Below are positions 1,945 to 28,598 of a stretch of 64,000 nucleotides of DNA, piece by piece; within the stretch, counting starts at the first letter, position 1, and each line of letters opens with the position of its first letter. The stretch spans positions 186,001 through 250,000 of the forward strand of contig NZ_JAKWJQ010000001.1 in the NCBI RefSeq assembly GCF_022761015.1, in the 5' to 3' direction. The DNA comes from Humibacter sp. RRB41. GTDB taxonomy: Bacteria; Actinomycetota; Actinomycetes; Actinomycetales; Microbacteriaceae. The position numbers and the translations under genes are program-made. The notes below the pieces were generated by a model. That model did no database searches. It saw only the letters and a program-made list of their open reading frames with translations, and was not told the DNA's origin.

Positions 1945-3420
1945 CGTGTATACCAACGTCGGCGGTTGCGGTCCGACCGCGCTGAGCTCGACGTCAGGTC
2001 GGGTCATCAGTGGTGAACGCAGGTGCACGAGAAGGTCGGGACCGGTGAGGGGGACCGTGGTCCAGGTCGCGACCGCAGTCTGCGCGTCGGCATCCAGTAC
2101 GAGCCGCACGTGGTGCGGGCTGGTGATGATGTAGAGGTCTGCGGCGAACACGTCCCCCCGCCAGCCGCCGCTCGCGCAGACCGGGCGGCTGAGAGGCGAG
2201 CTTTCCCTCCATCTCTCATGGCCGATCTCGACAGCGAAGAGGCCCTCGAAACGCAGCAGCCAGCCGCCGTCGATGTGCTCAAGCAGTACTGGGGTGCCAT
2301 CAGGCAGGGCGGAATCCTGGGCCGACGCGTCAAGCCTTGCGGCGAAGGATCGCAGCGGTCCAGCCGAGCCCTGCACCAGCGGCAGACACAGGCTGCGCAT
2401 CCGCACCGCCAGGGACCCGTCGTCGCGCGCACTGTCCGCGTGCTCGATGCCGGGAAGCAGGCACTCCCAGATGGCGTCGAGCACGTCCTGCGCCTGTCTA
2501 ACCTCGCGCTGGGCCGAGGTCACGACCACCACGAGATCATGGGTGGGGACGACCACGCAGTGCTGTCCGAACGCGCCACTGCCGTGGAAGCCGTGGCGCG
2601 ACATCCAGAACTGATAGCCGTAACCACAGAGGAAATCGGCACCGTCAGCACCTTCCGCATAGTGTCGGCTGTCGATTCGCTTGCTGGTCGCAAGCTCGAC
2701 CCAGTCACGCGGAACCAGCTGTTGGTCGCCCCAGCGACCGCCACGCAGCAGCAGTTCACCGAACGCGGCGACCGCCTCGGACCTGAGGTGCAGCCCGTGG
2801 AATCCGAACGCGGCACCGTTGCCCACTCGGTCCCATTCGGCATCCTCGATGCCCATGGGGTGGAAGAGCCGTTCGTCGAGGAACTCCGGAAGATTGCGGC
2901 CGGTGGCACGTTCCACCATCCGGGCCAGGATGAACGTCGTCGCGTTGTCGTAGGTGTGACGCGTTCCCTCTGCCGTGGCCACTGGCATCCGCAGGAAGCC
3001 CTTGACCAGGTCGTTCGGTTCCAGTTGCCAGGCCTCTTCGAGGCTGTCTGTCGGGTGCCCTGCCGTCATCGAGAGCAGATGGTGGACCGTGATGCGACGA
3101 CCCTGGTCCGACACGTCGCCGGGCACATGGTCCGGCAGCAGATCCACCACGCGGTCCTCGAGCGACAGCACGCCGTCGGCGACGGCCAGCCCGACAGCGA
3201 TCGACGTGAACGACTTCGTCAGCGAGTACAGCAGGTGGGGGCGTTCCGCCGAGTACGGCGCCCACCAGCCCTCGGCGATGACGCGTCCGCCGCGCACGAC
3301 CATGAGCGAGTGACACTCGATCGAGCGCTCGCCGAGCCTGTCCAGAAGTGCACCGATCGCACGAGAGGAGACTCCCACGGCGGCCGGCGATGATCGCGGC
3401 AGGAGGGTGCGGTGCGCCAT
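1906..3420 (-). CDS. Serine hydrolase, beta-lactamase class C fold
   Basis: 504 residues. The nucleophile motif S-x-x-K is visible as SLTK at about 66-69 (YSLTKSFTSIAVG) and the second motif Y-x-N as YDN about residue 160. This is the penicillin-binding-protein/class C beta-lactamase superfamily, whose environmental members are mostly esterases, D-aminopeptidases or of unknown use. No signal peptide is evident, so it is probably cytoplasmic. The carboxyl third (about 340-504) is an extra domain I do not recognise. It follows the MFS gene by nine bases on the same strand, suggesting an export-plus-hydrolysis pair. Confidence 0.85.
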   Translation of the reverse strand: MAHRTLLPRSSPAAVGVSSRAIGALLDRLGERSIECHSLMVVRGGRVIAEGWWAPYSAERPHLLYSLTKSFTSIAVGLAVADGVLSLEDRVVDLLPDHVPGDVSDQGRRITVHHLLSMTAGHPTDSLEEAWQLEPNDLVKGFLRMPVATAEGTRHTYDNATTFILARMVERATGRNLPEFLDERLFHPMGIEDAEWDRVGNGAAFGFHGLHLRSEAVAAFGELLLRGGRWGDQQLVPRDWVELATSKRIDSRHYAEGADGADFLCGYGYQFWMSRHGFHGSGAFGQHCVVVPTHDLVVVVTSAQREVRQAQDVLDAIWECLLPGIEHADSARDDGSLAVRMRSLCLPLVQGSAGPLRSFAARLDASAQDSALPDGTPVLLEHIDGGWLLRFEGLFAVEIGHERWRESSPLSRPVCASGGWRGDVFAADLYIITSPHHVRLVLDADAQTAVATWTTVPLTGPDLLVHLRSPLMTRPDVELSAVGPQPPTLVYTSAFGGPRRPYES

Positions 3421-3429
3421 CCGAAGACT

Positions 3430-4689
3430 CTAGCGACCGGGCTGTTCGCGCGTAGTCGGCGGTCGACTAGCCGGGCGTGCTTCGCGTAGTGGCGACAGCA
3501 CCGCGGTGAGCGCGGCGACCGCGAAGACGAGGATCATTCCGACGAGCGTGAGTCGGGGACCGATCAGCCCGACGAGGAAGCCACCGGCGAGGGCTCCGAT
3601 CGCAGCCAGGGTTCGATTGGCCGAGCGTCTGGTTGCGTTGGTGCGGCCGAGGAGTTCGTCTGGCGTGAGTGTCTGCCACAGAACCTGCTCGGGTGAGTTC
3701 TCTGTGCCCATGGCGAGCCCCTGGAGGGCCAGCGCGACGAACAGGAGGACCCCGCCGACGACCGTTGGAGGGGCTATCGCCACGAGAATCCAGACGATCG
3801 GGTAGGCCACGCGCGTGATGACTATCACGCGTCCCGGTCCGAGTCGCGCACCGAACCGTGGCGCGAGAGACGCACCGATCAGGCTGGTGATGCCGAAGAC
3901 CGTCAACAACAGTCCGAACGCGTAAGCCGAGAACCCGAGGGACCTGAGGGCGAGGAGCGACAGCACCGTCATCGCTGCGCCGTTGGCGATGAACCAGATG
4001 TGCGTCGACACCGCCAACGGGCCAAGCGTGCGGTGACGGTATGTCCACGCGAGACCCTCACGGATCTCTTTGCCGAGATTCCGAGTGCGGGAGGACGGTC
4101 GGTGCTCGTCCACACGGATGCCCGCATTGAGCACCGCGTCGACGAGGTAGCTGATCGAGTCGACGACGATCGCCACGGGCGCGCCGAGCAGGCCGACGAG
4201 CCCACCGCCGAGTGCCGGGCCGAGGGTTTGGGCGGCCGCGTCCGTTTGATCGAGGCGTGCGTTGGCCGACAGCAGCCGCGCACGCGGCACCAGGCGGGGA
4301 AGCAGCGATTGGGTCGCGGCGAACCCGAAGACGGAGAACGAACCGAACAGCAGAAGGGCGACGACCAGCATCCAGATCTGCAGGATGCCGAGCAGCCACA
4401 GAACCGTAATCGCACCCAGCGAAAGAGCACGCCCGACACTTGCCCACACGAGGATGGGCTTGCGACGCCACCGATCCGTGTACACGCCAGCGAGGAGCCC
4501 CAGCAGCGCATACGGTACGAACTGCGCCGCGTTCACAACGCCGACCTCGAACGGGGTCGCATCCAGCAGCTGTACGACCAGCACGGGCATCGCAACCGTT
4601 GTCACGGCCGTGCCGAAGGAACTGATCGTGGCAGCCGTCCAATAACGGGCGAATGACGAGCGACGGGCCTGACTGTGCGCCTCGCCCAT
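3430..4689 (-). CDS. MFS transporter, enterobactin-exporter/macrolide-efflux-like
   Basis: 419 residues with about twelve hydrophobic segments. The amino end (FARYWTAATISSFGTAVTTV) and the loop GVYTDRWRRKPILVW between helices 2 and 3 are typical of the MFS_3 group, which includes EntS and MefA-like drug pumps. It is predicted to be a proton-driven exporter in the cytoplasmic membrane; the substrate is unknown. GGGAG sits eight bases before the ATG. The downstream serine hydrolase is probably co-transcribed. Confidence 0.85.
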   Translation of the reverse strand: MGEAHSQARRSSFARYWTAATISSFGTAVTTVAMPVLVVQLLDATPFEVGVVNAAQFVPYALLGLLAGVYTDRWRRKPILVWASVGRALSLGAITVLWLLGILQIWMLVVALLLFGSFSVFGFAATQSLLPRLVPRARLLSANARLDQTDAAAQTLGPALGGGLVGLLGAPVAIVVDSISYLVDAVLNAGIRVDEHRPSSRTRNLGKEIREGLAWTYRHRTLGPLAVSTHIWFIANGAAMTVLSLLALRSLGFSAYAFGLLLTVFGITSLIGASLAPRFGARLGPGRVIVITRVAYPIVWILVAIAPPTVVGGVLLFVALALQGLAMGTENSPEQVLWQTLTPDELLGRTNATRRSANRTLAAIGALAGGFLVGLIGPRLTLVGMILVFAVAALTAVLSPLREARPASRPPTTREQPGR

Positions 4690-4927: not shown

Positions 4928-5788
4928 GTGGCCTCCGCTGAATCGGCTCTCGAGCGATTTTCGGCCGCCGTCGATTCTGAAGGGCTGGGCGTCTACGGCG
5001 TGCGCATCCGGATCGGCGACGAGTCGGTCTCGCGCCGATGGCGCAGTGACGATCGAGAGAACCTTTATTCGGTGTCGAAGGGTGTCAGCGCTATCGCGAC
5101 CGGGATCGCGATCGACGAGGGACTCATCTCGCTCGACCTGACAGTCGGAGAGGTCTTCACAGGCATCCCCCTCGGCGAAGGTGTCCCTGATGCGTCCTTG
5201 CGCGACTTTCTCACGATGAGCAGTGGCATCGACTTCCGATGGTTCGGTCACGAACCGGTGGTCTGGCCCGACCTCGCGGCCGAGATGCTGTCGCGCCCTT
5301 CGGTCCGTGGGCGATTCCAATACTCGGACGCGAGCACCTACGTGGCCATGCGGATGCTCGGATCGGTCGTGGGCGACGTGCGCGACTGGCTGCTCCCCCG
5401 GCTCTTCGATCCTCTCGAGATCGATAATCCGCAGTGGCATCGCTGTCCACTCGGCTGGATCATCGGCGGCACCGGTCTCGAGCTGCGCACCGATGAGCTG
5501 GCACGCATCGGAGACCTGCTCCTCGACCGCGGCACGTGGCACGGCCGCTGTCTTGTGAGCGCCGGATGGGTGGACGCGATGCACGCGTCCTTGGTCGAAA
5601 CCGGAAACCCGGCACCGATGGACCGCTACGGGATCGCCACCTGGGCCGGTCCGGGAGACGCCTGGCGCTTCGAAGGTCGGTACGGCCAGTTCGTCGTCAT
5701 CAACGGCGACGCCGTCGTCACGATCACGGGGCACGAGGAGGAACTCGAGGACCGGATCTCCGCGCTCGCCGTCGAGGTCACTTCCTGA
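4928..5788 (+). CDS. Serine hydrolase, class C beta-lactamase-like (short form)
   Basis: 286 residues. The S-x-x-K motif is SVSK in LYSVSKGVSAIATG (about 52). The position of the usual Y-x-N is YSD (FQYSDASTYVAMRML), so the Asn is replaced by Asp; this is seen in some non-lactamase members but makes true beta-lactamase activity less likely. The GTG at 4928 is chosen because GAAAGGGGA lies just upstream. No signal peptide is seen. It is convergent with the epoxide hydrolase gene 19 bases downstream and shares the 238-base upstream gap with the divergent MFS gene. Confidence 0.8.
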   Translation: MASAESALERFSAAVDSEGLGVYGVRIRIGDESVSRRWRSDDRENLYSVSKGVSAIATGIAIDEGLISLDLTVGEVFTGIPLGEGVPDASLRDFLTMSSGIDFRWFGHEPVVWPDLAAEMLSRPSVRGRFQYSDASTYVAMRMLGSVVGDVRDWLLPRLFDPLEIDNPQWHRCPLGWIIGGTGLELRTDELARIGDLLLDRGTWHGRCLVSAGWVDAMHASLVETGNPAPMDRYGIATWAGPGDAWRFEGRYGQFVVINGDAVVTITGHEEELEDRISALAVEVTS

Positions 5789-5807: not shown

Positions 5808-7019
5808 TCAGCTGAGGGATGCGACGAACCCGCGGATGGCGTCGGCCGCTTCCTCCGGCCGCTCCAGCCCCAGGAAATGCCCTCCCGCCGGTGCTTCGAC
5901 GAACTCGCGCAGGTCGCGTGCGGCACGCTCGGCGAGGGATCGTGGGAATCCCTGCATCACGGGTTCCCGGTTCAAGTACACGCCGAGCGGTGCACGGATG
6001 GGCGGCCGCGGCGGGTTCGACTCGTAGTCGAAGTATTGGCGGAACGAGGTGCCGATCGATTCCGTGACCCAGTACAGCGTGGCGAGGGTGAGCAGAGCGT
6101 CACGCTCGATCACCTGATCGAGGTCGCCGTCCACCCAGTCGTGCCACTTGTCGACGATCCAGGCGAGCAGCCCGGCAGGCGAGTCGACGAGGGCCGCTGC
6201 GATCGTGTCAGGCCTGGTCGACATGATCTCGCTGTAGCCGCCGTCGCCGACGTCGTACGTGTCGACGGCATCCAGATAGGCCCGTTCCTCGGGAGTGACC
6301 GAAGATGTGTCAGACGGGAATGGGGCGTTCAGCAGCTGCACCCCGAGCATCCGGTCGGCATGGTCGACGCCGAGCCACGTTGCCGCGGCGCCGCCGATGT
6401 CTCCCCCGAATGCGGCGTAACGGTCGTAGCCGAGAACCGCGGTCATCAGCTCGTGCAGATCGTCGGCGATCGCCTGGCGGGTGAGCGGCGGATCGGGCAG
6501 CTCTGAGAAGACGAAGCCGGGCAACGACGGGATGATGACATCGAAGGCGATGTGCGAATCGGAACCGAACGCGGCCGGGTTCGCCAGCCGGTCGCCGAGC
6601 GGAAGATACTCGATGAAGGAGCTCGGCCATCCGTGCAGCAACAGGATGGGAACGCGCAACTCCGCAGAGCCCGCCGCGGCGATCTTGACGAAGTGGATGC
6701 TGTGCTCATTCACCTGCGCCACGAACTGGTCGTAGGAGTTCAGGTGGGCTTCCTGCGCCCGCCAGTCGAAGTCGTTGAGCCAGGCGCGGACGAGTTCGTG
6801 CAGCGTGCTCGAGTCGATGCCGGCCGACCAGCCGCCGCCGAGCGGAGCGGCGTAACGGGTGCGCGACAAGCGGTCGCGTAGGTCTGTGAGGACTTCGTCG
6901 GGCACGTCGATGCGGAACGGTTCGGCAATCATGACGCTCACGCTACTGGCCTGCGCAGTAGACGCATCCGGACCGATGTCGCCGTAGGAGAGCGAAGACG
7001 CAAAACGGGTGATGTTCAT
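5808..7019 (-). CDS. Epoxide hydrolase family protein (EHN type)
   Basis: 403 residues. The amino half carries the epoxide-hydrolase N-terminal domain (FRIDVPDEVLTDLRDRL) and then the alpha/beta hydrolase core: oxyanion motif HGWPSSF, nucleophile Asp in FGGDIGG, and catalytic His in GGHFLGLERPEE. The reaction is hydration of an epoxide to a diol; the natural substrate is unknown. The start at 7019 is chosen because GGGGAGG lies four bases upstream, although the conserved family start (MIAEPFRI) is 29 residues inside and lacks a ribosome-binding site. It is divergent from the amino-acid permease. Confidence 0.85.
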   Translation of the reverse strand: MNITRFASSLSYGDIGPDASTAQASSVSVMIAEPFRIDVPDEVLTDLRDRLSRTRYAAPLGGGWSAGIDSSTLHELVRAWLNDFDWRAQEAHLNSYDQFVAQVNEHSIHFVKIAAAGSAELRVPILLLHGWPSSFIEYLPLGDRLANPAAFGSDSHIAFDVIIPSLPGFVFSELPDPPLTRQAIADDLHELMTAVLGYDRYAAFGGDIGGAAATWLGVDHADRMLGVQLLNAPFPSDTSSVTPEERAYLDAVDTYDVGDGGYSEIMSTRPDTIAAALVDSPAGLLAWIVDKWHDWVDGDLDQVIERDALLTLATLYWVTESIGTSFRQYFDYESNPPRPPIRAPLGVYLNREPVMQGFPRSLAERAARDLREFVEAPAGGHFLGLERPEEAADAIRGFVASLS

Positions 7020-18568: not shown

Positions 18569-18585
18569 CGGCGACGGCGCCGACT

Positions 18586-18609
18586 GCGGTTTTCGATAGG
18601 CCGACGATA
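18586..18609 (+). promoter_or_regulatory. Candidate VanR operator upstream of vanR
   Basis: GCGGTTTTCGATA (18586-18598) continues to a second CGATA at 18605-18609. The two CGATA units are 11 bases apart, the spacing typical of OmpR/PhoB-family direct-repeat sites. The same 13 bases and the same spacing recur at 23227-23250 upstream of vanH. It ends 16 bases before the vanR ATG. Confidence 0.7.
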
Positions 18610-18625
18610 TGTGCCGGCTCCTAGC

Positions 18626-19330
18626 ATGGGGAGGGTGCGTGTCTTGGTGGTCGAGGACGAGCCTTATATGGCGGAGGCGATCCGCGACGGGCTGCGTCTG
18701 GAGGCGATCGCAGCCGACATCGCGGGCGACGGCGACACGGCTCTGGAGCTGCTGAGCATCAACGCCTATGACATCGCGGTTCTCGATCGCGACATCCCTG
18801 GGCCCTCCGGCGACGAGGTCGCCGAGAGCATCGTGGCCTCAGACAGCGGCATGCCGATTCTGATGCTGACGGCGGCGGATCGCATCGACGACAAGGCATC
18901 CGGATTCGAGCTCGGCGCCGACGACTACCTGACCAAGCCGTTCGAGCTGCGGGAGCTCGTACTGAGACTCAGAGCGCTCGACCGCAGGCGCGTGCACAAA
19001 CGGCCGCCCGTGCTCGAGATCGCCGGCTTGCGCGTGGACCCGTTCCGCCGCGAGGTCTACCGGGACGGCAGGTACGTCGCGCTCACCAGAAAGCAGTTCG
19101 CGGTGCTCGAGGTGCTCGCATCCGCCGGTGGTGGCGTCGTCAGCGCGGAGGAGCTGCTTGAACGGGCCTGGGATGAGAACGCCGATCCGTTCACGAATGC
19201 GGTGCGCATCACAGTCTCGGCACTGCGCAAGCGGCTCGGCGAACCATGGCTGATCGCCACGGTGCCGGGTGTCGGGTACCGCATCGACGTGCGACCGGCA
19301 TCCGCTGGCGAGGGAGCCGAGCATGACTAG
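18626..19330 (+). CDS. vanR: VanR-type response regulator, OmpR family
   Basis: 234 residues. The receiver domain (about 4-118) has the acidic pair E10/D11, the phospho-acceptor D54 in AVLDRDIPGP and the Lys of TKPF near 104. The carboxyl winged helix includes LTRKQFAVLEVLASAGGGVVS and VRITVSALRKRLGEP. The sequence is very like the actinomycete (Streptomyces-type) VanR rather than the enterococcal one, from memory of that family. ATG 18626 is chosen because a GTG at 18635 would abut its own purine tract. It overlaps vanS by eight bases. Confidence 0.9.
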   Translation: MGRVRVLVVEDEPYMAEAIRDGLRLEAIAADIAGDGDTALELLSINAYDIAVLDRDIPGPSGDEVAESIVASDSGMPILMLTAADRIDDKASGFELGADDYLTKPFELRELVLRLRALDRRRVHKRPPVLEIAGLRVDPFRREVYRDGRYVALTRKQFAVLEVLASAGGGVVSAEELLERAWDENADPFTNAVRITVSALRKRLGEPWLIATVPGVGYRIDVRPASAGEGAEHD

Positions 19331-20402
19331 GAAGCCCGGCGTGAGCGTTCGTCTGAAACTCACCCTCAGCTACGCGGTGCTCCTCATCGTCGCGGGTGCC
19401 CTGCTGCTCGCAGTGGTGTGGGTGTTCATCCTGCGCTACGTACCAGTGAACGCGATCAGCATTCCCGGATTCTTCATGCCGGGCCGCTACGACCTCTGGC
19501 GGGCATTCGCTCCTCCGGCCGCGGGGGCTCTGGTCTTTTTGCTGCTCTTCGGTCTGCTGGGCGGGTGGGTGCTCGCAGGCCGTATGCTCGCGCCGCTGAC
19601 CAGAATCACGGATGCCACGCGCAAGGCTGCCAACGGATCCCTTTCGCATCGCATCGAACTGGAGGGCCGGGCGGACGAGTTCCGCGAGCTCGCCGACAGC
19701 TTCGACGCCATGCTCGCTCGAATCGAGGCGCACGACGCCGAGCAGCGCCGGTTTGCGGCGAACGCGTCCCACGAGCTGCGCACGCCCCTGGCGGTCACGC
19801 AGACCCTGCTCGATGTCGCGAGAAGCGATCCGAACCGCGACACCGCCGAGCTCCTCGAGCGACTTCGGAACGTCAACGTCAGGGCGATCGAACTCACAGA
19901 GGCCTTGCTCCTGCTCAGCCGCGCCGAGCAGCGCTCCTTCGCCCGCGGCAAGGTCGACCTGTCGCTCGTCGCGGAAGACGCGTCGGAAGCCCTGTTTCCC
20001 CTCGCGGAGAAGAACGGCATCGCCATCGACACGTCAGGAGAAGCGGCGTTCGCCCTCGGCTCCTACTCGCTCGTGCTGCAGCTGACCACGAACCTCGTGC
20101 ACAACGCCATCGTCCACAACGTTCCGGAGCACGGCACTGTTCAGGTCCAGACGGCCACCGACGCCGGGTCGGCAGTGCTCACGGTCGAGAACACCGGGGA
20201 AATGCTCTCGCCGCAATTGGTGGCGACACTCACGGAACCGTTCCAGCGCGGCAGCGGACGCATCCGCAGCGACCATGCGGGCGTCGGCCTCGGACTGGCG
20301 ATCGCCAAGAGCATCGCCGAAGCGCACGACGGAACACTGACCCTCTCGCCGGTGGAGACCGGCGGTCTGCGCGTCACCGTGGAACTGCCGGCCGCTCCCT
20401 GA
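19323..20402 (+). CDS. vanS: VanS-type sensor histidine kinase
   Basis: 359 residues. Two membrane helices (about 13-35 and 64-84) flank a short outside loop of about 27 residues. A HAMP region follows, then the phospho-accepting His150 in ANASHELRTPLAV, the N box LTTNLVHNAIVHN and the G box GVGLGLAIAKS. The short external loop is a feature of Streptomyces-type VanS, proposed to respond to glycopeptide directly. It is translationally coupled to vanR and faces vanX, the last gene of the effector operon. Confidence 0.9.
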   Translation: MTRKPGVSVRLKLTLSYAVLLIVAGALLLAVVWVFILRYVPVNAISIPGFFMPGRYDLWRAFAPPAAGALVFLLLFGLLGGWVLAGRMLAPLTRITDATRKAANGSLSHRIELEGRADEFRELADSFDAMLARIEAHDAEQRRFAANASHELRTPLAVTQTLLDVARSDPNRDTAELLERLRNVNVRAIELTEALLLLSRAEQRSFARGKVDLSLVAEDASEALFPLAEKNGIAIDTSGEAAFALGSYSLVLQLTTNLVHNAIVHNVPEHGTVQVQTATDAGSAVLTVENTGEMLSPQLVATLTEPFQRGSGRIRSDHAGVGLGLAIAKSIAEAHDGTLTLSPVETGGLRVTVELPAAP

Positions 20403-20416
20403 GCGCCGGCCGCTCG

Positions 20417-20469
20417 CTCGGTGCCCACCGCTTCCTCGGTGCCCACCGCTTCCTCGGTGCCACCGCTTC
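20417..20469. repeat. 18-base tandem repeat between vanS and vanX
   Basis: CTCGGTGCCCACCGCTTC at 20417-20434 and 20435-20452, and a copy lacking one C at 20453-20469. Each unit contains CGGTG...CACCG and can form a small hairpin. The tract fills the gap between the convergent vanS and vanX stops and touches the vanX TAG, so it may also serve as a terminator. Confidence 0.8.
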
Positions 20470-21078
20470 CTAGGTGATCGGAAAGTCGAAGTAGGTATCG
20501 GGATGCGGCTCGTTCCGCAGCGTGTAATGCCACCACTCCGCCGGATACGAACGGAATCCGCTCTCCTCCATGATCGAGCGAAGCCGCAGCCGGTTCTGAG
20601 CCTCGACCTGCGGGATGCCGTCGGCGCCGTGATGCGACACCGAATCCATCAGGTCGTGGTCGCCGCCCATCGCCGCCAACTCGCCGGTCGCCTTGCGATA
20701 GAGCGTCAGGTCGACGGTGCCGCCTCGGCTGTGCCCGGACTTCGCTGCCACGTATCCGAGGTCGAACATCTGGGCCCGTTCGATGTTCGGATAGTGCCGC
20801 GGCTTGGTGCGGCCGTCCTCCGGCTGCCTCGACCACAGCACGAAGTCGTCGACGGCGCGTTGCGGGCGATAGGCATCCCAGATCAGAAGCCCGAAGCCGT
20901 GCGACGCGGCTTCGTCGCGTGCACGCTCGAGGGCTTCACCCAGCGCCCTGGTGCCGACGATCCGGTTGGCCAGGTACCCGTCGACGGGCCGGCCGGTGAA
21001 GTTGTCCCAGGTGGCGTACTTCGCATCCCAGCGGATGCCAGGGAGCTGCTCGTCCAGATACACGAATTCGTTGTTCAT
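20470..21078 (-). CDS. vanX: D-Ala-D-Ala dipeptidase VanX
   Basis: 202 residues, the same length as characterised VanX. It removes D-Ala-D-Ala so that only D-Ala-D-Lac enters the cell wall. The zinc ligands H116, D123 and H184, the general base E181 and R71 all fall at the canonical VanX positions: SGHSRGGTVDL, EWWH and DAYRP. No signal peptide is present, which fits the cytoplasmic VanX rather than VanY. Its ATG overlaps the vanA stop (ATGA). Confidence 0.97.
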   Translation of the reverse strand: MNNEFVYLDEQLPGIRWDAKYATWDNFTGRPVDGYLANRIVGTRALGEALERARDEAASHGFGLLIWDAYRPQRAVDDFVLWSRQPEDGRTKPRHYPNIERAQMFDLGYVAAKSGHSRGGTVDLTLYRKATGELAAMGGDHDLMDSVSHHGADGIPQVEAQNRLRLRSIMEESGFRSYPAEWWHYTLRNEPHPDTYFDFPIT

Positions 21079-22115
21079 CGGCCCCGCTCCCGGGTGGCGA
21101 AGGAGATCAGCCGGTCGAGGATCTCTGCCAGCGGGATGCCGGCAGCGGCCATCATGCGCGGGTAGCGGCTGTACGACGTCATGCCGGGAAAGGTGTTGAC
21201 CTCGTTCAGCACGACGTCTCCGTCTGCCTTCAGAAACATGTCGACGCGCGCCAGCCCGCGGCATCCGAGCGCCCGATAGACGGTCCGTGCCGTCTGCTGC
21301 ACGAGGAGACGAGCCTCCGTGGAGATCTCGGCGGGAACGACGATCATCGAGTTCTCGGAGCGGACTTCCGGCTCGTCCTCCTGATGGATGCGGAAGAAGC
21401 CGTGCGACAAGCGGATCTGGTCCACCTCGCCGACGATCAGTTCGGTGTCGCCTTCGAGCACGGCGCACCCGACCTCGCTGCCGACGACCGCCTCCTCGAT
21501 CAGGATCTTGGAGTCGAACCGGCTGGCGGCATCCACCGCGCGAGGCAGGTCTTGTTTGGCGTCGACGCGACTCACGCCGAACGAGGACCCGGAGCGCGCC
21601 GGCTTGACGAAGACGGGATAGGACATGCGGACCGCGTCGACGTGGCCGTCGGCGGTGATGGTCCAGAAGTTCGGGGTGGCGATGCCAGCGCTTCTCGCGA
21701 CGAGATAGGTGAGCGACTTGTCCATGGACAGGGCGGAGCTTTGGATGTCGCAGCCGACGTAGGGGATCCCGGCGAGTTCCAGCAGTCCTTGGATTGCGCC
21801 GTCTTCGCCGAACCTGCCATGCAGGACGGGGAGCACCACGTCGAGACGGATGATCGCGGTGCGGTCGCCCTCGTCGACCAGCAGACCGTGCACGGCTCGG
21901 TCGGGCGACAGCGTCACCGGACGGCATCCGCTGCTCTCCCAGTCGGGACCTGGACTCTCGCAGAGCTTCCACTCACCGTGCGTCGTGATCCCGACATAGA
22001 ACGGTTCGTACTTCGCGAGATTCAGATTGCGTGCAACCTCGTGCGCTGACTTTACGGAGACGGGGTGCTCTTCGGATGCGCCGCCGAAGACGATCGCGAC
22101 CTTCGCTTTAGGCAT
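21075..22115 (-). CDS. vanA: D-alanine--D-lactate ligase VanA type
   Basis: 346 residues. ATP-grasp ligase that makes D-Ala-D-Lac. VanA-type marks are the opening VAIVFGGASEEHPVSVKSAHE, VGCDIQSSALSMDKSLTYLVA, FVKPARSGSSFGV, VVGEVDQIRLSHGFFRIHQE and NEVNTFPGMTSYSRYPRM. The omega-loop region (VGEVDQIRLSHG) matches D-Lac ligases, not housekeeping Ddl, where a Tyr-containing motif is expected. It overlaps vanH by eight bases and vanX by four. Confidence 0.97.
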   Translation of the reverse strand: MPKAKVAIVFGGASEEHPVSVKSAHEVARNLNLAKYEPFYVGITTHGEWKLCESPGPDWESSGCRPVTLSPDRAVHGLLVDEGDRTAIIRLDVVLPVLHGRFGEDGAIQGLLELAGIPYVGCDIQSSALSMDKSLTYLVARSAGIATPNFWTITADGHVDAVRMSYPVFVKPARSGSSFGVSRVDAKQDLPRAVDAASRFDSKILIEEAVVGSEVGCAVLEGDTELIVGEVDQIRLSHGFFRIHQEDEPEVRSENSMIVVPAEISTEARLLVQQTARTVYRALGCRGLARVDMFLKADGDVVLNEVNTFPGMTSYSRYPRMMAAAGIPLAEILDRLISFATRERGR

Positions 22116-23187
22116 TCGGAGTTCCTTCGAATTCGAGGCAGTTGAGGAGGGTGTTCTGCACGATGTCGCTCAGGGCGTGATCCGTGTAGTACGCGGTGTG
22201 CGGGGTGATCATCACGTTCGGGAGTCGCTGAAGGCGCAGGAACAGTTCGCTGTCGATCGGGTCGTGGCTGTGGTCGGTGTAGAAGATGCCTTCCTCGTCC
22301 TCGACGACATCCAGCGCGGCGCCTCCCAACCTGCCGCTCTCCAACTCCGACACCAGCGCCTCGGTGTCGATGAGGGGCCCCCGCCCCGTGTTGATGACGA
22401 ACGCTCCGGGCTTCAGGAGCCCGAGCCGCGTGCGGTTCAGCAGATGTTTCGTCTCGTCGTTGAGCGGCGTGTGCAGGGTCAGGATGTCGCTCTGCCGCAA
22501 CAGCTCGTCGAGCTCGCCGTAGTCCGCTGAGACCTTGGAAGGTCGGTCGAAGGCCAGCACGCGGCATCCGAAACCCTGCAGTCTGTCGATGACCGCCGAG
22601 CCGATGCGTCCCGTTCCGATGACTCCGACGGTCAGGTCGCGGAGCTCCCTGCCGCGAACCGGCTGCAGTCTGAAGTCGTGGGCCTCGGCGCTGGTGACGG
22701 TCGATCGCGCGTTCCGCACGGCCATCAGCATGAGCATCAGCGTGTAGTCGGCGACGCTGTCGGGCGAGTATGCGACGCCCTCGACCGCGACGCCGAGGCT
22801 GCGCGCGAAGTCGACGTCGATGTGATTGTACCCGGTGCTTCGGGTCGAGATGTATGAGACGCCCACGTCACTGAGCGCGCGAAGCGCGGGATTCGTGATG
22901 CGGGTCTTGTGGCCGACGCTGATGCATCGGTTCCCGGTCGCGAACTCGGCGGTGGACTCGGATGCCGCCGCCTCGGTGATACTGAGCTCGACGCCGAAGC
23001 GGGGCGCGACCTCACGAAACAGGGCGGCCTCGTCCGGCTCGCATCCGTACAGGGATATCCCGACGCGTCGCGCGAGCGCTTGCGTCGTGCCCCGGGCGTC
23101 GCTGTGGCTCCATTCAGGTACGGCGGACCGTGGTGGCGACGTGCGGACGTGCCATGAGGTTGTTCGTGGTTGCTTGCTGCCGGCCAT
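22108..23187 (-). CDS. vanH: D-lactate dehydrogenase VanH
   Basis: D-2-hydroxyacid dehydrogenase that reduces pyruvate to D-lactate for VanA. The core shows SLYGCEPDEAALF, SVGHKTRI, YISTRSTGYNHID, the NAD motif GVIGTGRIGSAVI, FVINTGRGPLIDTEAL and the catalytic His in TPHTAYYTD. No ATG, GTG or TTG lies in frame near the conserved start, so the reading begins at ATG 23187 and gives a 42-residue leader (359 residues in all) with no signal-like character. First gene of the vanHAX operon. Confidence 0.92.
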   Translation of the reverse strand: MAGSKQPRTTSWHVRTSPPRSAVPEWSHSDARGTTQALARRVGISLYGCEPDEAALFREVAPRFGVELSITEAAASESTAEFATGNRCISVGHKTRITNPALRALSDVGVSYISTRSTGYNHIDVDFARSLGVAVEGVAYSPDSVADYTLMLMLMAVRNARSTVTSAEAHDFRLQPVRGRELRDLTVGVIGTGRIGSAVIDRLQGFGCRVLAFDRPSKVSADYGELDELLRQSDILTLHTPLNDETKHLLNRTRLGLLKPGAFVINTGRGPLIDTEALVSELESGRLGGAALDVVEDEEGIFYTDHSHDPIDSELFLRLQRLPNVMITPHTAYYTDHALSDIVQNTLLNCLEFEGTPNA

Positions 23188-23226
23188 GCGATCCAGTCAA
23201 GACAGCGGGGTGTTGCGACGAGGTAT

Positions 23227-23250
23227 GCGGTTTTCGATATGGCGGCGATA
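23227..23250 (+). promoter_or_regulatory. Candidate VanR operator in vanH/phosphotransferase promoter gap
   Basis: GCGGTTTTCGATA (23227-23239) followed by CGATA at 23246-23250, again with 11-base spacing. Read on the minus strand it is TATCG-N6-TATCGAAAACCGC ending about 40 bases before the vanH ATG, with CATACC just downstream as a possible -10. It also lies 60 bases before the plus-strand phosphotransferase gene. Confidence 0.7.
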
Positions 23251-23310
23251 CACCTTCAGCGGCTCTGCTCAGTCGCAGGAGCGGGAGTGGCAGCGCGATA
23301 CCGTCGAGAG

Positions 23311-24258
23311 GTGGAACCCCGGGAGCGCGCGGAAGCGATAGCGAACACCCTGGATATCGTCGCCACTCGCATAGCCGAGCTGCCGGGCGGCAACCAGAAC
23401 CATGTCATTCGTGTGATCGGCGAAGGTCGCGACGTGGTCGTGCGATTCGCGAAGGCCCCGGAACGTACGGGCGATCCGTTCGACGTCGAGGAGTGGTGCC
23501 TGAAGGCGGTGGCGCAGGTGGGCATCCGCAGCTCCAGGGTCGTTTCGCGCGGGTGGCTGGCAGAGGTCTCGTACCTTGCTGTCGAATACGTCGACGGCGT
23601 CACCGCATCACCGGACGACCCGGAGGCCTGGCGCGCGCTTGGTCGATTCGCGACCGCGCTCGCACGAGTGGACGTCTCGAACGCACCCGATGCGCTGTTC
23701 CCCCGGTTCGGTCGCGATCTCGACGCAGCGTGGCGGGCCCACCTCGATTACAACCGGGCGGCGCTCGCCGACGGCGATCCGCTCATCGACCTCGGTGTCT
23801 ACGAACGTGATCGACAGGACCGATTGCAAGCCATGCTCGCCTCGCTCCAGCGGCGGACTCTTGTGCAAGGCCTCGTGCACGGTGACATGTCGACGCGAAA
23901 TCTTGTCGCGGATCGTGACTACACCCTGATCGATTGGGGATCGGCTCACGTCGGGCCGACTCCTTGGAGCGACCTCGAGCAGATTCATCGTTGGAAGCTG
24001 CTCGACGACCAGGAATCGCCGGTCAGCGACAGGGCATGGCGCGAGGTGCTCGCGGGGGCGGGCGTGGCTGAGGCCGAGGCCGAAGCCGAAGCCGAGGCCG
24101 AAGCCGAGGCCGAAGCCGAGGCCGAAGCGATGCTCAACGAGCTTGCCGTTCTGAATGCGCTGGATGTCGTCAGATGGGCCATCGACGTTCGGCCGGATCG
24201 CCTTCAGGAGATCGTCGGCCGCTCGGCGCGTGTGTTGTGGCGCGTGCTTCACGGGTAG
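23311..24258 (+). CDS. Aminoglycoside-phosphotransferase-like kinase with Glu-Ala repeat
   Basis: 315 residues. The kinase-like fold is shown by GGNQNHVIRV (nucleotide loop), VVVRFAK (Lys), the catalytic loop VHGDMSTRNLV near 193 and the metal-binding Asp in LIDWGSAH. Such proteins phosphorylate antibiotics, choline, sugars or other small molecules; the substrate is unknown. Residues about 253-273 are roughly ten Glu-Ala repeats, inserted before the last helices. The GTG at 23311 is uncertain; ATG 23239 is also open but lies inside the operator. Divergent from vanH. Confidence 0.75.
   Translation: MEPRERAEAIANTLDIVATRIAELPGGNQNHVIRVIGEGRDVVVRFAKAPERTGDPFDVEEWCLKAVAQVGIRSSRVVSRGWLAEVSYLAVEYVDGVTASPDDPEAWRALGRFATALARVDVSNAPDALFPRFGRDLDAAWRAHLDYNRAALADGDPLIDLGVYERDRQDRLQAMLASLQRRTLVQGLVHGDMSTRNLVADRDYTLIDWGSAHVGPTPWSDLEQIHRWKLLDDQESPVSDRAWREVLAGAGVAEAEAEAEAEAEAEAEAEAEAMLNELAVLNALDVVRWAIDVRPDRLQEIVGRSARVLWRVLHG
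24068..24127 (+). repeat. Six-base coding microsatellite (Glu-Ala)
   Basis: About ten copies of GARGCC, mixing GAG and GAA for Glu and always GCC for Ala, inside the phosphotransferase gene. The unit length keeps the reading frame, so copy changes would lengthen or shorten the helix without breaking the protein. Confidence 0.9.
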
Positions 24259-24459: not shown

Positions 24460-26142
24460 TCAGCTTCGCAGGATGATGTCGAGTGCCCGATCGAGCCGGG
24501 TCAGCGATGCGGCACCGTACCCGAGCACGAGACCGTTGAGCGCTGTGGCGGGAGAGACCGCGTAGTTCGCGAGCTCCTCGACGAGGATGCCATCGCGCGC
24601 CAGTCGCGTGCGCATGCTCGCGGCATCCGGCAGCGGAGTGGGTATCGGCGCGGCCGTGTCGTCGGGCCGCGGCACGGAGACGTCGCCTGGCAGCGGCCAC
24701 ATCAGCACGGCGTGCAGTCCGCCGGCAAGGGCGCGTACTTGGAGTCCCGGGATCGCAGCGTCGGCGAGCCGCGTCGCGATCCGATCGCGCCGGTGCACGT
24801 AGTCGCGGCGCACCCGGCCGAGGTGGCGGCGGAGTGCGCCCGTGCGCATCAGGTGAGCGAGCGCCTGCTGCGCGACCTCGGACACTACGGGGCCGCGGGC
24901 GGCGCGGGCCCGCGTGAGGGCATCCGCGAACCGCGCGCCGATGTGCTCGCCGCCCCTGCGCTCGCCGCGTTCGTCCTTCTGGCCGCTGGTGTCGGGCGGT
25001 CCACTGGTGTCGGGCGGTCCGCTGGAGCCCGGCATCGCGGCGGCGGGCAGCACCATGTAGGCGCACCGGAGTCGCGGGTCGAGGATCTTCGAGAAGCCGC
25101 CGAGGTGCAGCACCACGCCCTCCATGTCGAGGGATGCCAGTGCCGGCATCGGAACACCGCGGTGACGGAACTCGGAGTCGTAGTCGTCCTCGATGACGAC
25201 GACCTGGTTCGCACCCGCCCACTCCAGCAGTCGTCGGCGGTGGGAGACCGGCATCACGGAGCCGAGCGGATACTGGTGCGTCGGCGTCACCATCACCGCG
25301 TCGGGGAGGCCGCGCTCGCGGGAGACGGCTTCGAGGCGATCCAGATCGAGACCCTCGTCGGTGACGGGGATGCCGACCAGCTCGCCGCCGGAGCCGAGAA
25401 TCGCGCGGCGGCCGGAGCGGTAGCCGGGGTCCTCGACCGCGAAGCGCGGGGTGCGTTGGTGAAGTGTGCGAAGGGCATCTGTCACCAGCGACAGCGCCTC
25501 GGACGTGCCGGCGGTCACGATCACCCGCGACGGGTCAGGGACGAACCCTCGCGTGAGGCCGAGCGCGGCGACCTGCTCGCGTAGCAGGGCCGTACCGAAC
25601 GGGTCGCTCAGCGCGTTGGTCAGCGGGAGTTCGGCAGCGGCGCGCCAGGCCGCGCGCCAGTCGCGGGCTGGGAAGGCCGTGACCGCTGGGATACCGGGGC
25701 GCAGGTCGATGGGCGGGCTCATGGGCGGGCTTGTGGTCGGGCTCGTGGTCGTGGTCGTGCTCGTGCTCGGGCTCGTGCTTGTGCTTGTGCTTGTGCTTGT
25801 GCTTGTGCTCGACCTTGCACTTGTGCTCGTGTCAGTGGGTGGTGGAATGGTCCTCGGCGCTCGAGGTGCTCCGCCCTGGGTTGCGTTCGATCCGGCGTGC
25901 GCCGCGACACCGATGGAGACGTCCGACACCACTCGCGCAACGGCGCCCTGGCGGGTGCGGATGTACCCCTCGCCGTCGAGTTGTTCGTAGGCGGCGACCA
26001 CGGTTCCCCGCGCGACACCGAGTTGTACGGCGAGCGAGCGCGTCGAGGGCAGTGCGTCCCCGGCATGCAGCGTGCCGGAATGCACCATCTCGCGGACGCG
26101 ACTTGCAACATCAGCGACTTTTCCGGACTGGTCCACTCGCAT
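24460..26142 (-). CDS. MocR/PdxR-like regulator (GntR HTH plus aminotransferase domain)
   Basis: 560 residues. A GntR winged helix (about 5-72: LHAGDALPSTRSLAVQLGVARGTVVAAYEQL) is joined by a Thr/Ser/Pro-rich linker (about 100-145) to a fold-type I aminotransferase domain with the PLP-binding Lys in HLGGFSKILDPRLR. MocR regulators sense pyridoxal phosphate or amines. The start at 26142 is chosen over an open extension to 27084 because the HTH begins here and TGGTCCA boxes surround it. The divergent PPOX-like gene is its likely target. Confidence 0.88.
   Translation of the reverse strand: MRVDQSGKVADVASRVREMVHSGTLHAGDALPSTRSLAVQLGVARGTVVAAYEQLDGEGYIRTRQGAVARVVSDVSIGVAAHAGSNATQGGAPRAPRTIPPPTDTSTSARSSTSTSTSTSTSTSPSTSTTTTTSPTTSPPMSPPIDLRPGIPAVTAFPARDWRAAWRAAAELPLTNALSDPFGTALLREQVAALGLTRGFVPDPSRVIVTAGTSEALSLVTDALRTLHQRTPRFAVEDPGYRSGRRAILGSGGELVGIPVTDEGLDLDRLEAVSRERGLPDAVMVTPTHQYPLGSVMPVSHRRRLLEWAGANQVVVIEDDYDSEFRHRGVPMPALASLDMEGVVLHLGGFSKILDPRLRCAYMVLPAAAMPGSSGPPDTSGPPDTSGQKDERGERRGGEHIGARFADALTRARAARGPVVSEVAQQALAHLMRTGALRRHLGRVRRDYVHRRDRIATRLADAAIPGLQVRALAGGLHAVLMWPLPGDVSVPRPDDTAAPIPTPLPDAASMRTRLARDGILVEELANYAVSPATALNGLVLGYGAASLTRLDRALDIILRS
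25778..25807. repeat. Hexamer repeat encoding Ser-Thr linker of MocR
   Basis: Five copies of CTTGTG on the plus strand, within a longer CTCGTG/GTCGTG-like tract from about 25743, code the alternating Ser-Thr stretch of the linker. Changes in copy number would alter linker length between DNA-binding and PLP domains without a frameshift. Confidence 0.85.
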
Positions 26143-26172
26143 AGCCCCTATCTGGACCAAGTGAGTGGTCCA
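26129..26172. promoter_or_regulatory. Candidate MocR operator: three TGGTCCA boxes
   Basis: TGGTCCA at 26129-26135, its inverse TGGACCA at 26153-26159, and TGGTCCA again at 26166-26172. They span the start of the MocR gene and the promoter gap to the divergent PPOX gene. Direct plus inverted boxes are the known design of PdxR/MocR sites. A lone extra box is at 27033-27039. Confidence 0.6.
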
Positions 26173-26193
26173 GCTGCACCATATCGTGATGGC

Positions 26194-26946
26194 ATGAGTG
26201 TGATTCCCGAGACCTCGGATGCCGCCCGTGACGAGGCATCCCGAACCCCTTCCATGACCGTGCGCCGCAAGCGTGAACGCCAGTCGCATGACCCCGAGCA
26301 GCTGGACGAGATTCTTCAGGAGGGCTACTTCGCCCACGTCGGTATGGTGCGCGACGGACTGCCCGTTGTGCTCCCCTATCTCTACGCGGTCGGGGACCTT
26401 GGTGAAGGTCCGCGCCTGCTGTTGCACGGGTCGACCGGTGGCGGAGCCTTCATCCAAGCCGGCAGCCGAGGGATGCCCGTGGCCGTCACGATCACGCATC
26501 TCGACGGCCTCGTATACGCGCGTTCCACCAATGACAGTTCGGCGAACTATCGCAGCGCGATGGTGTTCGGGCGGGCGACCGTCGTTCCGGCCGAGCAACG
26601 GGCCGAGGCGCTCTGGCAGATCGCGGATCACCTCATGCCCGGGCGTCGCGCCGAGGTTCGCGAGATGACCGACAAGGAGATCGCCGCGACGCAGGTGCTC
26701 CAGCTTCCGCTCGACACGGTGAGCGTCAAGGTGCGGTTCGCGGGTGTCGGAGAGGCCGCCGACGACGGCGAGGACCACGGGGTGTGGGCCGGGGTGCTGC
26801 CGCTCGCGGTGCATGCGGGGGTGCCGCAAGCATCCGCCTTGACTGAGGCAGCGGATGTCTCGCCGTCGATCCTCGCGGCCGCGGAAGCGCTCGATGCGCG
26901 GGCTCGTGATCGTGACGCCCGGCTCGCGGCGATGGGATCGGTCTAG
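26194..26946 (+). CDS. PPOX-family flavin-binding protein, NimA-like
   Basis: 250 residues. PEQLDEILQEGYFAHVGMVRDGLPVVLPYLYAV and LLLHGSTGGGAFIQAG are landmarks of the pyridoxamine 5'-phosphate-oxidase-like group that includes NimA nitroimidazole reductases. The carboxyl part has the usual TVSVKVRFAGVGEAADDGED region. The divergent MocR regulator suggests control by pyridoxal phosphate, but a true PdxH role is not supported because the length and motifs differ. Confidence 0.8.
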   Translation: MSVIPETSDAARDEASRTPSMTVRRKRERQSHDPEQLDEILQEGYFAHVGMVRDGLPVVLPYLYAVGDLGEGPRLLLHGSTGGGAFIQAGSRGMPVAVTITHLDGLVYARSTNDSSANYRSAMVFGRATVVPAEQRAEALWQIADHLMPGRRAEVREMTDKEIAATQVLQLPLDTVSVKVRFAGVGEAADDGEDHGVWAGVLPLAVHAGVPQASALTEAADVSPSILAAAEALDARARDRDARLAAMGSV

Positions 26947-27056
26947 GCGAGGGGGAACGTCTCGGACGGCTAGGAGGCGGGCACTGGCCTGCATCGTGGC
27001 AAAGACCGTGGACGCGGGCTTGCACGAGTGAGTGGTCCATCGCGAACCTCGCCCGT

Positions 27057-28598
27057 TCATGCGCTGCTTCTCACGCGTTCCCACGTGGTCGACTTCGGTC
27101 GAAGCGGAATCGGTCGGCGAACGGCGCCCGGTACTGGCGGCGGGACGAGCTCATATTCCGTGCCCCTGCGCCTGATTCGCCAGCGATTGTTGTGGAGGTT
27201 CAGGTGATGGAACTTGCAGAGCAGCACGCCGTCGGCGATGTCAGTTCGTCCGTGATCGGCTTCCCACTCGTTATTGTGATGGGCTTCGGTCTGCCAAGCC
27301 GGAATCTCGCAGCCGGGCCAGAGGCATCCGCCGTCGCGTGCGGCGAGCACAACCCGTTGCGCTGCCGAGAACGTGCGTTGTGTGCGGCCCAGGTTCAAAG
27401 CGCGGCCACTGCGATCTACGGTGATCGGCACGATTCCGCAGTCGCATGCCGTTGCTTGAATGAAAGCCGCGGGGACAGCGTCTGCTGAGCCCTCGAGCAC
27501 TCCGTCGTGCTCGTCGTCGTGGACGCCGTCGACGCCCACTGTGTCGACGACCGTGATCACGCGTACACCGGGGCGCTTGCCGCGGAAGACCGAACTCTCG
27601 TCGCAACCAGCGCCGTCACGTACGACCTGAATGAACGTGTCGAACATCAGCTGGGTGTTGCTGCGGGGATCTTCGGATAGAGCGTTCTCCCACGCTCTGT
27701 CTTCGCTCGACATGAATCGCGGGCCTCCGCGCCGGGGGCTCAGCGCAAGGTCGAACAGTTGGGTGAGGAAGACACCGGACTCGTCGTCGGCGACTGCGAG
27801 CAGATTCAACGAGCCGTCGGCGTCCCGCCAGGTCTTGAGCGAGCGCTTCTGGTACCGGCGTTCGAACCTGTCGGCAACGCCGTGGGCGTCGATGCGGTCG
27901 CGCACCAGTCGAGCGCGTCGCTGCAGATCATCGCGAGGCATTCCTGCGACCGTGTCAGTTGCGTTCCCCGAACCGGGCTCTCGCGTGGCGTACTCGACCA
28001 ATTCGCTCGCGGCGGCCCGACGATCCTCGACCGGGCACGACTCCGATACGTCGTCCAGCGTTCGCACGATCAGGTGACCGAGTTCTGGCGAGATTTCGCC
28101 GGAGTTGATGGCTGTGGTCACGGGGTGTTGCCAAGGCAACACCGGAGCATCGCGAAGGGGCGTCGACGATTCGGATGCCGGAGGCACTGCGTCAGCTTCG
28201 CCGAGCAGTTCTCCGATGCGCACTTGGCGACGGGCTTCAGTGGGGGACTCGCCGGTCAGAACCTGCACGAGTCGGGTCGCGGACGGATGGCCGGCGCGCT
28301 GGGCCAGCCCGGAATGGCCGAGCTCGCGACGTGAACGCTTGGCGATCTCGCCGGCAGCGATGGAGATCACCCGATCGAGCTCGGCGCGACCCGAACCGGC
28401 CTCGGAAAGCAACATTTGCAGGTGGTCGTCGGAGAGCATCCGAATCGACTCGACCAAAGACTCTGCCGCCGCTGCTCGCTGAGGGCGCACAACACCGGGT
28501 GTCGAGTGGATGACGGTGAGCTCGCCGTCATCCATCTCGTTGACCAGAGCACACACGTGGCCGACCACGGCGGTGAGGCGACTCAGGTTGGATGACAT
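27057..28598 (-). CDS. DUF222 / HNH endonuclease domain protein
   Basis: 513 residues. The long amino part is the DUF222 (13E12-repeat-like) domain common and multi-copy in actinobacteria. The carboxyl end is an HNH nuclease with CLWPGCEIPAWQTEAHHNNEW and a second metal/histidine part LLCKFHHLNLHNNRW. These proteins are thought to be mobile or selfish, but no phage or homing partner is seen here. The upstream 373 bases are non-coding and more AT-rich near 28605-28640, a likely promoter. Confidence 0.9.
   Translation of the reverse strand: MSSNLSRLTAVVGHVCALVNEMDDGELTVIHSTPGVVRPQRAAAAESLVESIRMLSDDHLQMLLSEAGSGRAELDRVISIAAGEIAKRSRRELGHSGLAQRAGHPSATRLVQVLTGESPTEARRQVRIGELLGEADAVPPASESSTPLRDAPVLPWQHPVTTAINSGEISPELGHLIVRTLDDVSESCPVEDRRAAASELVEYATREPGSGNATDTVAGMPRDDLQRRARLVRDRIDAHGVADRFERRYQKRSLKTWRDADGSLNLLAVADDESGVFLTQLFDLALSPRRGGPRFMSSEDRAWENALSEDPRSNTQLMFDTFIQVVRDGAGCDESSVFRGKRPGVRVITVVDTVGVDGVHDDEHDGVLEGSADAVPAAFIQATACDCGIVPITVDRSGRALNLGRTQRTFSAAQRVVLAARDGGCLWPGCEIPAWQTEAHHNNEWEADHGRTDIADGVLLCKFHHLNLHNNRWRIRRRGTEYELVPPPVPGAVRRPIPLRPKSTTWERVRSSA

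Follow-up and report, generated by a model that had tools for sequence, protein, structure and literature searches.

Response regulators of the OmpR/PhoB type bind, as a rule, to direct repeats with an 11-base period that stand in tandem pairs near the -35 position. Among the described van systems, the van genes of Streptomyces coelicolor are under VanRS control, as set out in passages of PMC6001138 and PMC7947799, the former of which also treats a divergent vanSR-vanJ promoter region, and in several enterococcal types VanR recognises two separate promoters, those of vanRS and of vanHAX, according to a passage of PMC8541618. Here we describe a direct-repeat element that occurs upstream of both vanR and vanH in a 64,000-nucleotide (nt) stretch of the genome of Humibacter sp. 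RRB41 (contig NZ_JAKWJQ010000001.1, positions 186,001 to 250,000), hereafter called the window. We consider it highly likely, from the pattern of the DNA, that both copies are operators of VanR, built on a two-ended plan, each serving a promoter with a predicted -10 box and a probably leaderless start.

The first-pass annotation of this DNA had pointed to an identical 13-mer, GCGGTTTTCGATA, and to a second CGATA that begins 11 bases after the first in both copies, and a pattern search bears this out. The 13-mer stands at 18586-18598 and 23227-23239, and the two CGATA motifs begin at 18594 and 18605 in the first copy and at 23235 and 23246 in the second, so that GCGGTTTTCGATA-N6-CGATA, with its two direct half-sites 11 bp apart, is present both upstream of vanR and upstream of vanH, in copies that lie 4.6 kilobases (kb) apart and have 13 bases in common. 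The neighbourhood is likewise as had been described, with one copy on the vanR side and the other in the divergent gap between vanH and a phosphotransferase gene, as judged with Pfam and NCBIfam models. Within the window, the 13-mer with up to two mismatches has three matches against 0.72 expected by chance, a number reached in 5 of 100 shuffles, and CGATA-N6-CGATA with up to one mismatch has two matches, both exact, against 1.75 expected at such looseness. The annotation had proposed a search of the whole genome for CGATA-N6-CGATA, and had held that many copies unrelated to van genes would speak against an operator. The exact form occurs at only two places in the organism's own assembly (3.89 megabases, 14 contigs), both of them the van promoters, and the reversed control pattern occurs once. 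Even GGTTTTCGATA-N6-CGATA with up to three mismatches is found at just 12 places in the assembly (two for the reversed control); the two van copies have no mismatch and the other ten all have three, a single one of which (L012) reaches at least 10 bits, at 11.1 bits, with the matrix described below. The element is thus rare or absent elsewhere in the genome in both its exact and its near-exact forms. The looser pattern TTTTCGATA-N6-CGATA with up to two mismatches was tried as a marker across the family and dropped as uninformative, being present in 243 of 299 family genomes when VanX was found in only 12.

The conservation of the element was assessed in related van loci. A VanX search of the 299 family genomes gave the 12 matches just mentioned at E 1e-60, own genome included, and a ligase search in one bacterial genome collection gave 354 relatives, of which the best 80 loci were kept and longer stretches then taken. 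Loci with both VanX and VanH hits above 150 bits were retained (52, window included), and removal of L108 and L114, duplicates of L029 and L061, left 50 distinct loci; among those excluded was L109, in which VanH is missing or cut by the contig end and which nonetheless carries a site of 29.1 bits. From 62 sites of the relatives (23 at vanR and 39 at vanH) we built a 20-column matrix, the sites having been picked by similarity to a consensus drawn after viewing all sequences, those of the window included. The two window sites are not in the matrix or in the 55-promoter column counts; the window is counted in the orientation, half-operator, spacing and TAGCAT operator counts. With this matrix the vanH copy scores 33.07 bits and the vanR copy 31.09 bits, the third-best place in the window scores 4.35 bits, and the best of 60 random 64-kb sequences scores 14.05 bits. 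At least one site of at least 18 bits is carried by 42 of the 50 distinct loci, window included, with 84 such sites altogether. Most of the relatives' vanR and vanH upstream regions carry the same element, in a constant position across numerous actinobacterial genera, and it is conserved at these promoters in relatives with a similar VanR.

Both the orientation and the spacing of the element follow strict rules. At scores of at least 16 bits, window included, it reads in the same direction as vanR at 25 of 25 assigned vanR sites and against the direction of vanH at 37 of 37 assigned vanH sites, the rule having assigned no site at 5 of 30 vanR loci and 13 of 50 vanH loci; the distance rule missed the vanH sites of L051, L063 and L113 and the vanR site of L112 (127 nt upstream), which were counted as none. 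A start codon, ATG or GTG, lies 62 or 63 nt away in the vanH direction at 75 of the 84 sites (5.7% expected at random places) and 44-46 nt away in the vanR direction at 36 of 84 (8.1% expected); 29 sites have start codons at both conserved distances and only two at neither. By the orientation rule both window operators read on the plus strand because vanR lies on the plus strand and vanH on the minus strand. vanR and vanH read away from opposite ends of the element, so that the common strand can be understood without invoking a second gene. The same-strand orientation of the two copies had been taken in the first-pass annotation as a hint that the vanH copy also drives the phosphotransferase gene, and this proposal finds no support here, such an orientation being the rule for vanH operators. 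The sequences of the element, their spacing, their orientation and their conservation are direct observations.

The full element consists of two half-site pairs, site A (TATCG-N6-TATCG) and site B (CATAC-N6-GCAAC). In the vanH direction the order of blocks is TATCG-N6-TATCG, CATAC-N6-GCAAC, TTGACT and ATG. In the vanR direction the order in the window is TTTTCGATA-N6-CGATA, 12 nt, TAGCAT, 7 nt and the start codon, and most relatives follow it closely. Among 55 promoters from relatives whose start codon stands at offset 62, the TATCG, TATCG, ATAC and CAAC columns are at least 90% conserved; these promoters were chosen by their site A score, so that the conservation of TATCG is partly a matter of selection and that of site B is not. 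TAGCAT with at least five of six matches is found at 22 of 25 vanR operators and at 3 of the 59 others. In both window directions 11-12 nt separate the half-site pair nearest the gene from the -10 box, which puts the pair at the -35 position, and the box lies about 7 nt before the start codon, an arrangement of sequence from which the vanR and vanH messages are probably leaderless. CATACG was also considered as the vanH -10 box, prompted by a published truncated fragment discussed below, and is less likely, as it is without the final T and as GTTGACTGG is kept before the ATG of vanH even in a Galbitalea locus (L061) where the operator itself is unrecognisable.

From this arrangement we infer VanR as the binding protein, the two -10 assignments and activation as the effect. 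Phosphorylated VanR, probably as a head-to-tail dimer like other OmpR/PhoB regulators, would bind the 11-bp direct repeat. At the vanR end site A itself would occupy the -35 position, 12 nt from the TAGCAT box, and at the vanH end site B would do so, 11 nt from the TTGACT box, with site A just upstream of site B. The window vanR copy is reduced to the site A end and the vanH copy is complete, such that vanRS would activate its own expression through a single dimer site and vanHAX would be activated through two.

Half and shared operators occur among the relatives. Site B is present upstream of vanR too in 19 of 30 vanR loci, and a divergent -10-like box accompanies it in 17 of these 19, against 2 of the 11 loci without site B, the window among them (Fisher p 0.00018, with thresholds for site B and the box chosen after data inspection). 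One operator is shared by the divergent vanR and vanH genes of L051, and in L048 the operator upstream of vanR points on its other side to a 97-codon frame, after which vanH follows. Given these half and shared operators, the window vanR copy fits a two-ended element of which one end has been kept. This raises the possibility that the actinobacterial VanR operator acts as a movable promoter cassette with two ends and four half-sites. The pair that adjoins the -10 box would take the place of the -35 element, so that one end would serve vanR promoters and the other those of vanH, vanK-like, murF-like and vanJ-like genes; the cassette would have been copied in part together with the start codon and first codons and would lose the end where no gene lies, as at the window vanR. 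We put this forward tentatively, as a proposal slightly less likely than not.

Further copies of the operator were seen in relatives before vanK-like (FemX-type) and murF-like genes, with the start codon at offset 62 and the gene names assigned from short motifs and by eye. They lie at 4510 in L030, 3197 in L031, 3229 and 5894 in L032, 3169 in L037, 5909 in L049, 5845 in L053, 8779 and 11415 in L063, 5862 in L064 and 5885 in L065. Unrelated genes behind the operator often have common first codons, ATG-ACC/TCC-TAC-AGC-GAA-CCA (M[TS]YSEP). vanK-like genes and vanH are 52% identical over nt 4-21 (null 28%, maximum 39% in 1000 draws), dropping to 36% over nt 22-39, in a comparison of only six vanK-like genes in which two of the six same-genome pairs have just 22%; four murF-like genes (L049, L053, L064 and L065) are without the common first codons. 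At about 3197 in L031 there is a vanR-type promoter with a perfect TAGCAT and vanS directly after it, and no vanR hit was obtained in that locus.

One rival reading takes the conserved block for a core promoter or a sigma-factor element belonging to the van promoters, with VanR binding elsewhere. Rigid spacing to start codons would be expected of a core promoter as well, and part of the block does cover the -35 position. However, site A stands 12 nt from the inferred -10 box on the vanR side and 34 nt from that on the vanH side, in opposite orientations, which is hardly possible for a -35 element, and there are no exact copies in the rest of the assembly; we regard this explanation as quite improbable. 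Some other regulator, such as a further member of the OmpR family or one that responds to cell-wall stress, could be proposed as the binding protein given that the part played by VanR is deduced. Against this, no exact copy in the assembly lies away from van genes, relatives carry the element at van-type genes as well (vanR, vanH, vanK-like and murF-like) and VanR is the regulator encoded beside it, making such a substitution less probable still. That the repeat arose by chance, or by a recent local duplication without function, would account for the bases shared by the two window copies. It is contradicted by the matrix scores, by the start-codon spacing and by the recurrence of the element in a matching position in the van loci of numerous genera of actinobacteria, and can hardly be entertained. 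The earlier proposal of a VanR operator at both van promoters finds strong support in the position, orientation and spacing that the element keeps in actinobacterial van loci, and in its confinement to van promoters within the assembly; the identity of the bound protein is a prediction from these same patterns. In all likelihood the element is a genuine operator of an established kind whose two-ended layout is unusually clear.

Several observations weigh against the assignment to VanR or against parts of the model. Eight of the 50 van loci are without a site of at least 18 bits (L040, L043, L058, L060, L061, L062, L115 and L116), of which L043, L060 and L062 are non-actinobacterial; L115 and L116, whose VanR is 74% identical, have no recognisable site at vanR. 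Site B is conserved with an 11-bp period and does not closely resemble site A, and its binding by VanR is a guess. The usual form of a -10 box is TANNNT, from which TTGACT departs. The locus of Streptomyces tendae (L030), a species we take to be closely related to S. coelicolor, stood in for the latter in the placement of published primers. According to PMC9779433, a vanH promoter fragment of S. coelicolor showed about 20-fold induction in liquid culture, compared with about 40-fold for vanJp, and was much less responsive than vanJp on plates. On L030 the forward primer matches exactly at 5403 and the vanHp reverse primer with three mismatches at 5917, so that the fragment appears to end within GCAAC and to lack TTGACT; the implied product is 533 nt against 539 bp reported, and the reverse primer also matches upstream of the forward primer, with three mismatches at 4527 and four at 3261. 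An intact site B and TTGACT may thus not be essential, or the vector may have supplied a -10 box. The induction of this apparently truncated fragment weakens the case for a requirement of site B and TTGACT. Furthermore, a passage of PMC7947799 reports that leaderless transcripts are under-represented among glycopeptide-responsive S. coelicolor genes as a whole, the van genes not being singled out there, a trend which does not favour leaderless van genes and is yet compatible with them. No footprint or gel shift of VanR on this element was found in the literature examined, and no description of the operator was found in titles, abstracts or the passages covered, most papers having been judged by title and the start of the abstract. 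The operator is not given in passages of PMC8329863, PMC9739842, PMC7852140, PMC6767563 and PMC7148328, and a search of PMC8698665 for promoter-related and other terms found none.

The locations of the predicted promoter features and of the genes are collected in Table 1. The vanX, vanA and vanH genes form a minus-strand block at 20470-23187, and a PPOX-type gene lies ahead of vanR by Pfam and NCBIfam. VanX, a D-Ala-D-Lac ligase and VanH thus stand together, as in a D-Ala-D-Lac (vanHAX) resistance cluster; VanX and the ligase exceed their model cut-offs and the best VanH model falls below its own (499 versus 540).

Table 1. Predicted regulatory features and genes of the van locus, in window coordinates.
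Feature	Position	Strand	Remarks
Place of site B at vanR, decayed: GCGAC-N6-GACTG	18571..18586	+	5/10 matches to GTTGC-N6-GTATG
Predicted VanR operator core (site A) at vanR, TTTTCGATA-N6-CGATA	18590..18609	+	31.1 bits; covers -35 position of inferred vanR promoter
Inferred vanR -10 box TAGCAT	18622..18627	+	12 nt beyond operator, 7 nt before GTG; leaderless arrangement
vanR, OmpR-family response regulator	18635..19330	+	best matched by VanR-O model; closest solved structure is S. coelicolor VanR (7lz9/7lza)
vanS, sensor kinase	19323..20402	+	Pfam/NCBIfam
vanX, D-Ala-D-Ala dipeptidase	20470..21078	-	374 bits, cut-off 320
vanA-type D-Ala-D-Lac ligase	21075..22115	-	NF000206, 575.5 bits, cut-off 550
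vanH, D-lactate dehydrogenase	22108..23187	-	vanH_gen 498.6 bits, below cut-off 540
Inferred vanH -10 box TTGACT	23195..23200	-	7 nt before ATG; leaderless arrangement
Site B at vanH, CATAC-N6-GCAAC	23212..23227	-	covers -35 position of inferred vanH promoter; conserved in relatives
Predicted VanR operator core (site A) at vanH	23231..23250	-	33.1 bits; TTTTCGATA-N6-CGATA on +, TATCG-N6-TATCG in vanH direction
Possible own -10 box (TACCGT) of phosphotransferase gene	23299..23304	+	6 nt before GTG 23311; by eye only
APH-type phosphotransferase gene	23311..24258	+	Pfam/NCBIfam; van regulon membership not supported by evidence found

Use of the vanH operator in both directions, with the phosphotransferase gene as a second target, has to be weighed separately. 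Operators do seem to be used from both ends elsewhere, as in L051, in L048 and where vanR has a divergent gene in other relatives, and by eye a leaderless-type arrangement, TACCGT-6-GTG, precedes the gene. Set against this, the phosphotransferase side agrees with TAGCAT at two of six bases where the box is otherwise conserved, no start codon stands there at the distance kept elsewhere, and among the 52 van loci the gene gives a hit above 60 bits in the window only. Homologues (E up to 1e-30) were found in 8 of 199 genomes, own included, and in the stretches fetched around those of the seven other genomes there is no site of at least 10 bits. A truly bidirectional operator at this position is accordingly improbable. 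The TANNNT-6-GTG arrangement, which by eye lies 48 nt beyond the repeat, suggests that the gene has its own promoter. Synteny with a genome of the same genus (G057) was tried as a clue to the state before acquisition of the van genes and was uninformative, as in two stretches only the gene itself matches the window. The phosphotransferase frame contains an Ala-Glu repeat run, and a neighbouring minus-strand frame at 24460-27084 contains a Ser-Thr repeat run.

Our analysis offers a testable sequence rule for actinobacterial VanR targets, by which the reach of the VanR regulon, including vanK-like, murF-like and other genes, could be read from a genome. The full, half and shared divergent operators form a natural series that bears on the way an activator of the OmpR family can act at either end of an asymmetric site, and on how leaderless resistance genes get switched on.

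The locus can be set beside four described systems. It resembles the VanRS-controlled vanSRJKHAX cluster of S. coelicolor, whose VanR is very similar in sequence, the window protein being alignable over residues 1-228 to the solved structure (7lz9/7lza) with the C-terminal helices included, and in S. tendae (L030) the element precedes vanR, vanH and a vanK-like gene. It differs from that cluster in the convergent order of vanRS and vanHAX and in a vanR operator of which only site A is left, and no vanJ- or vanK-type family match was obtained among the eight window frames scanned. VanO-type clusters provide the best NCBIfam models for the window VanR (NF033118, VanR-O) and VanS (NF033094, VanS-O), with scores that fall below the curated cut-offs (449 bits versus 505 and 495 versus 720, respectively), so that the window proteins are related to this type and are not members of it. 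The proposed arrangement of two VanR-controlled promoters, for vanRS and for vanHAX, is like that of PR and PH in the enterococcal VanA and VanB types. The window VanR scores weakly on the enterococcal-type VanR model (113 bits against a cut-off of 350). In the 1994 work of Holman, the region protected at PH was reportedly larger than that at PR. Finally, the window operators share the 11-bp period and the tandem pairs near -35 with the direct-repeat operators of OmpR/PhoB regulators, from which they differ in that the element is asymmetric and is apparently read from both ends with different core promoters.

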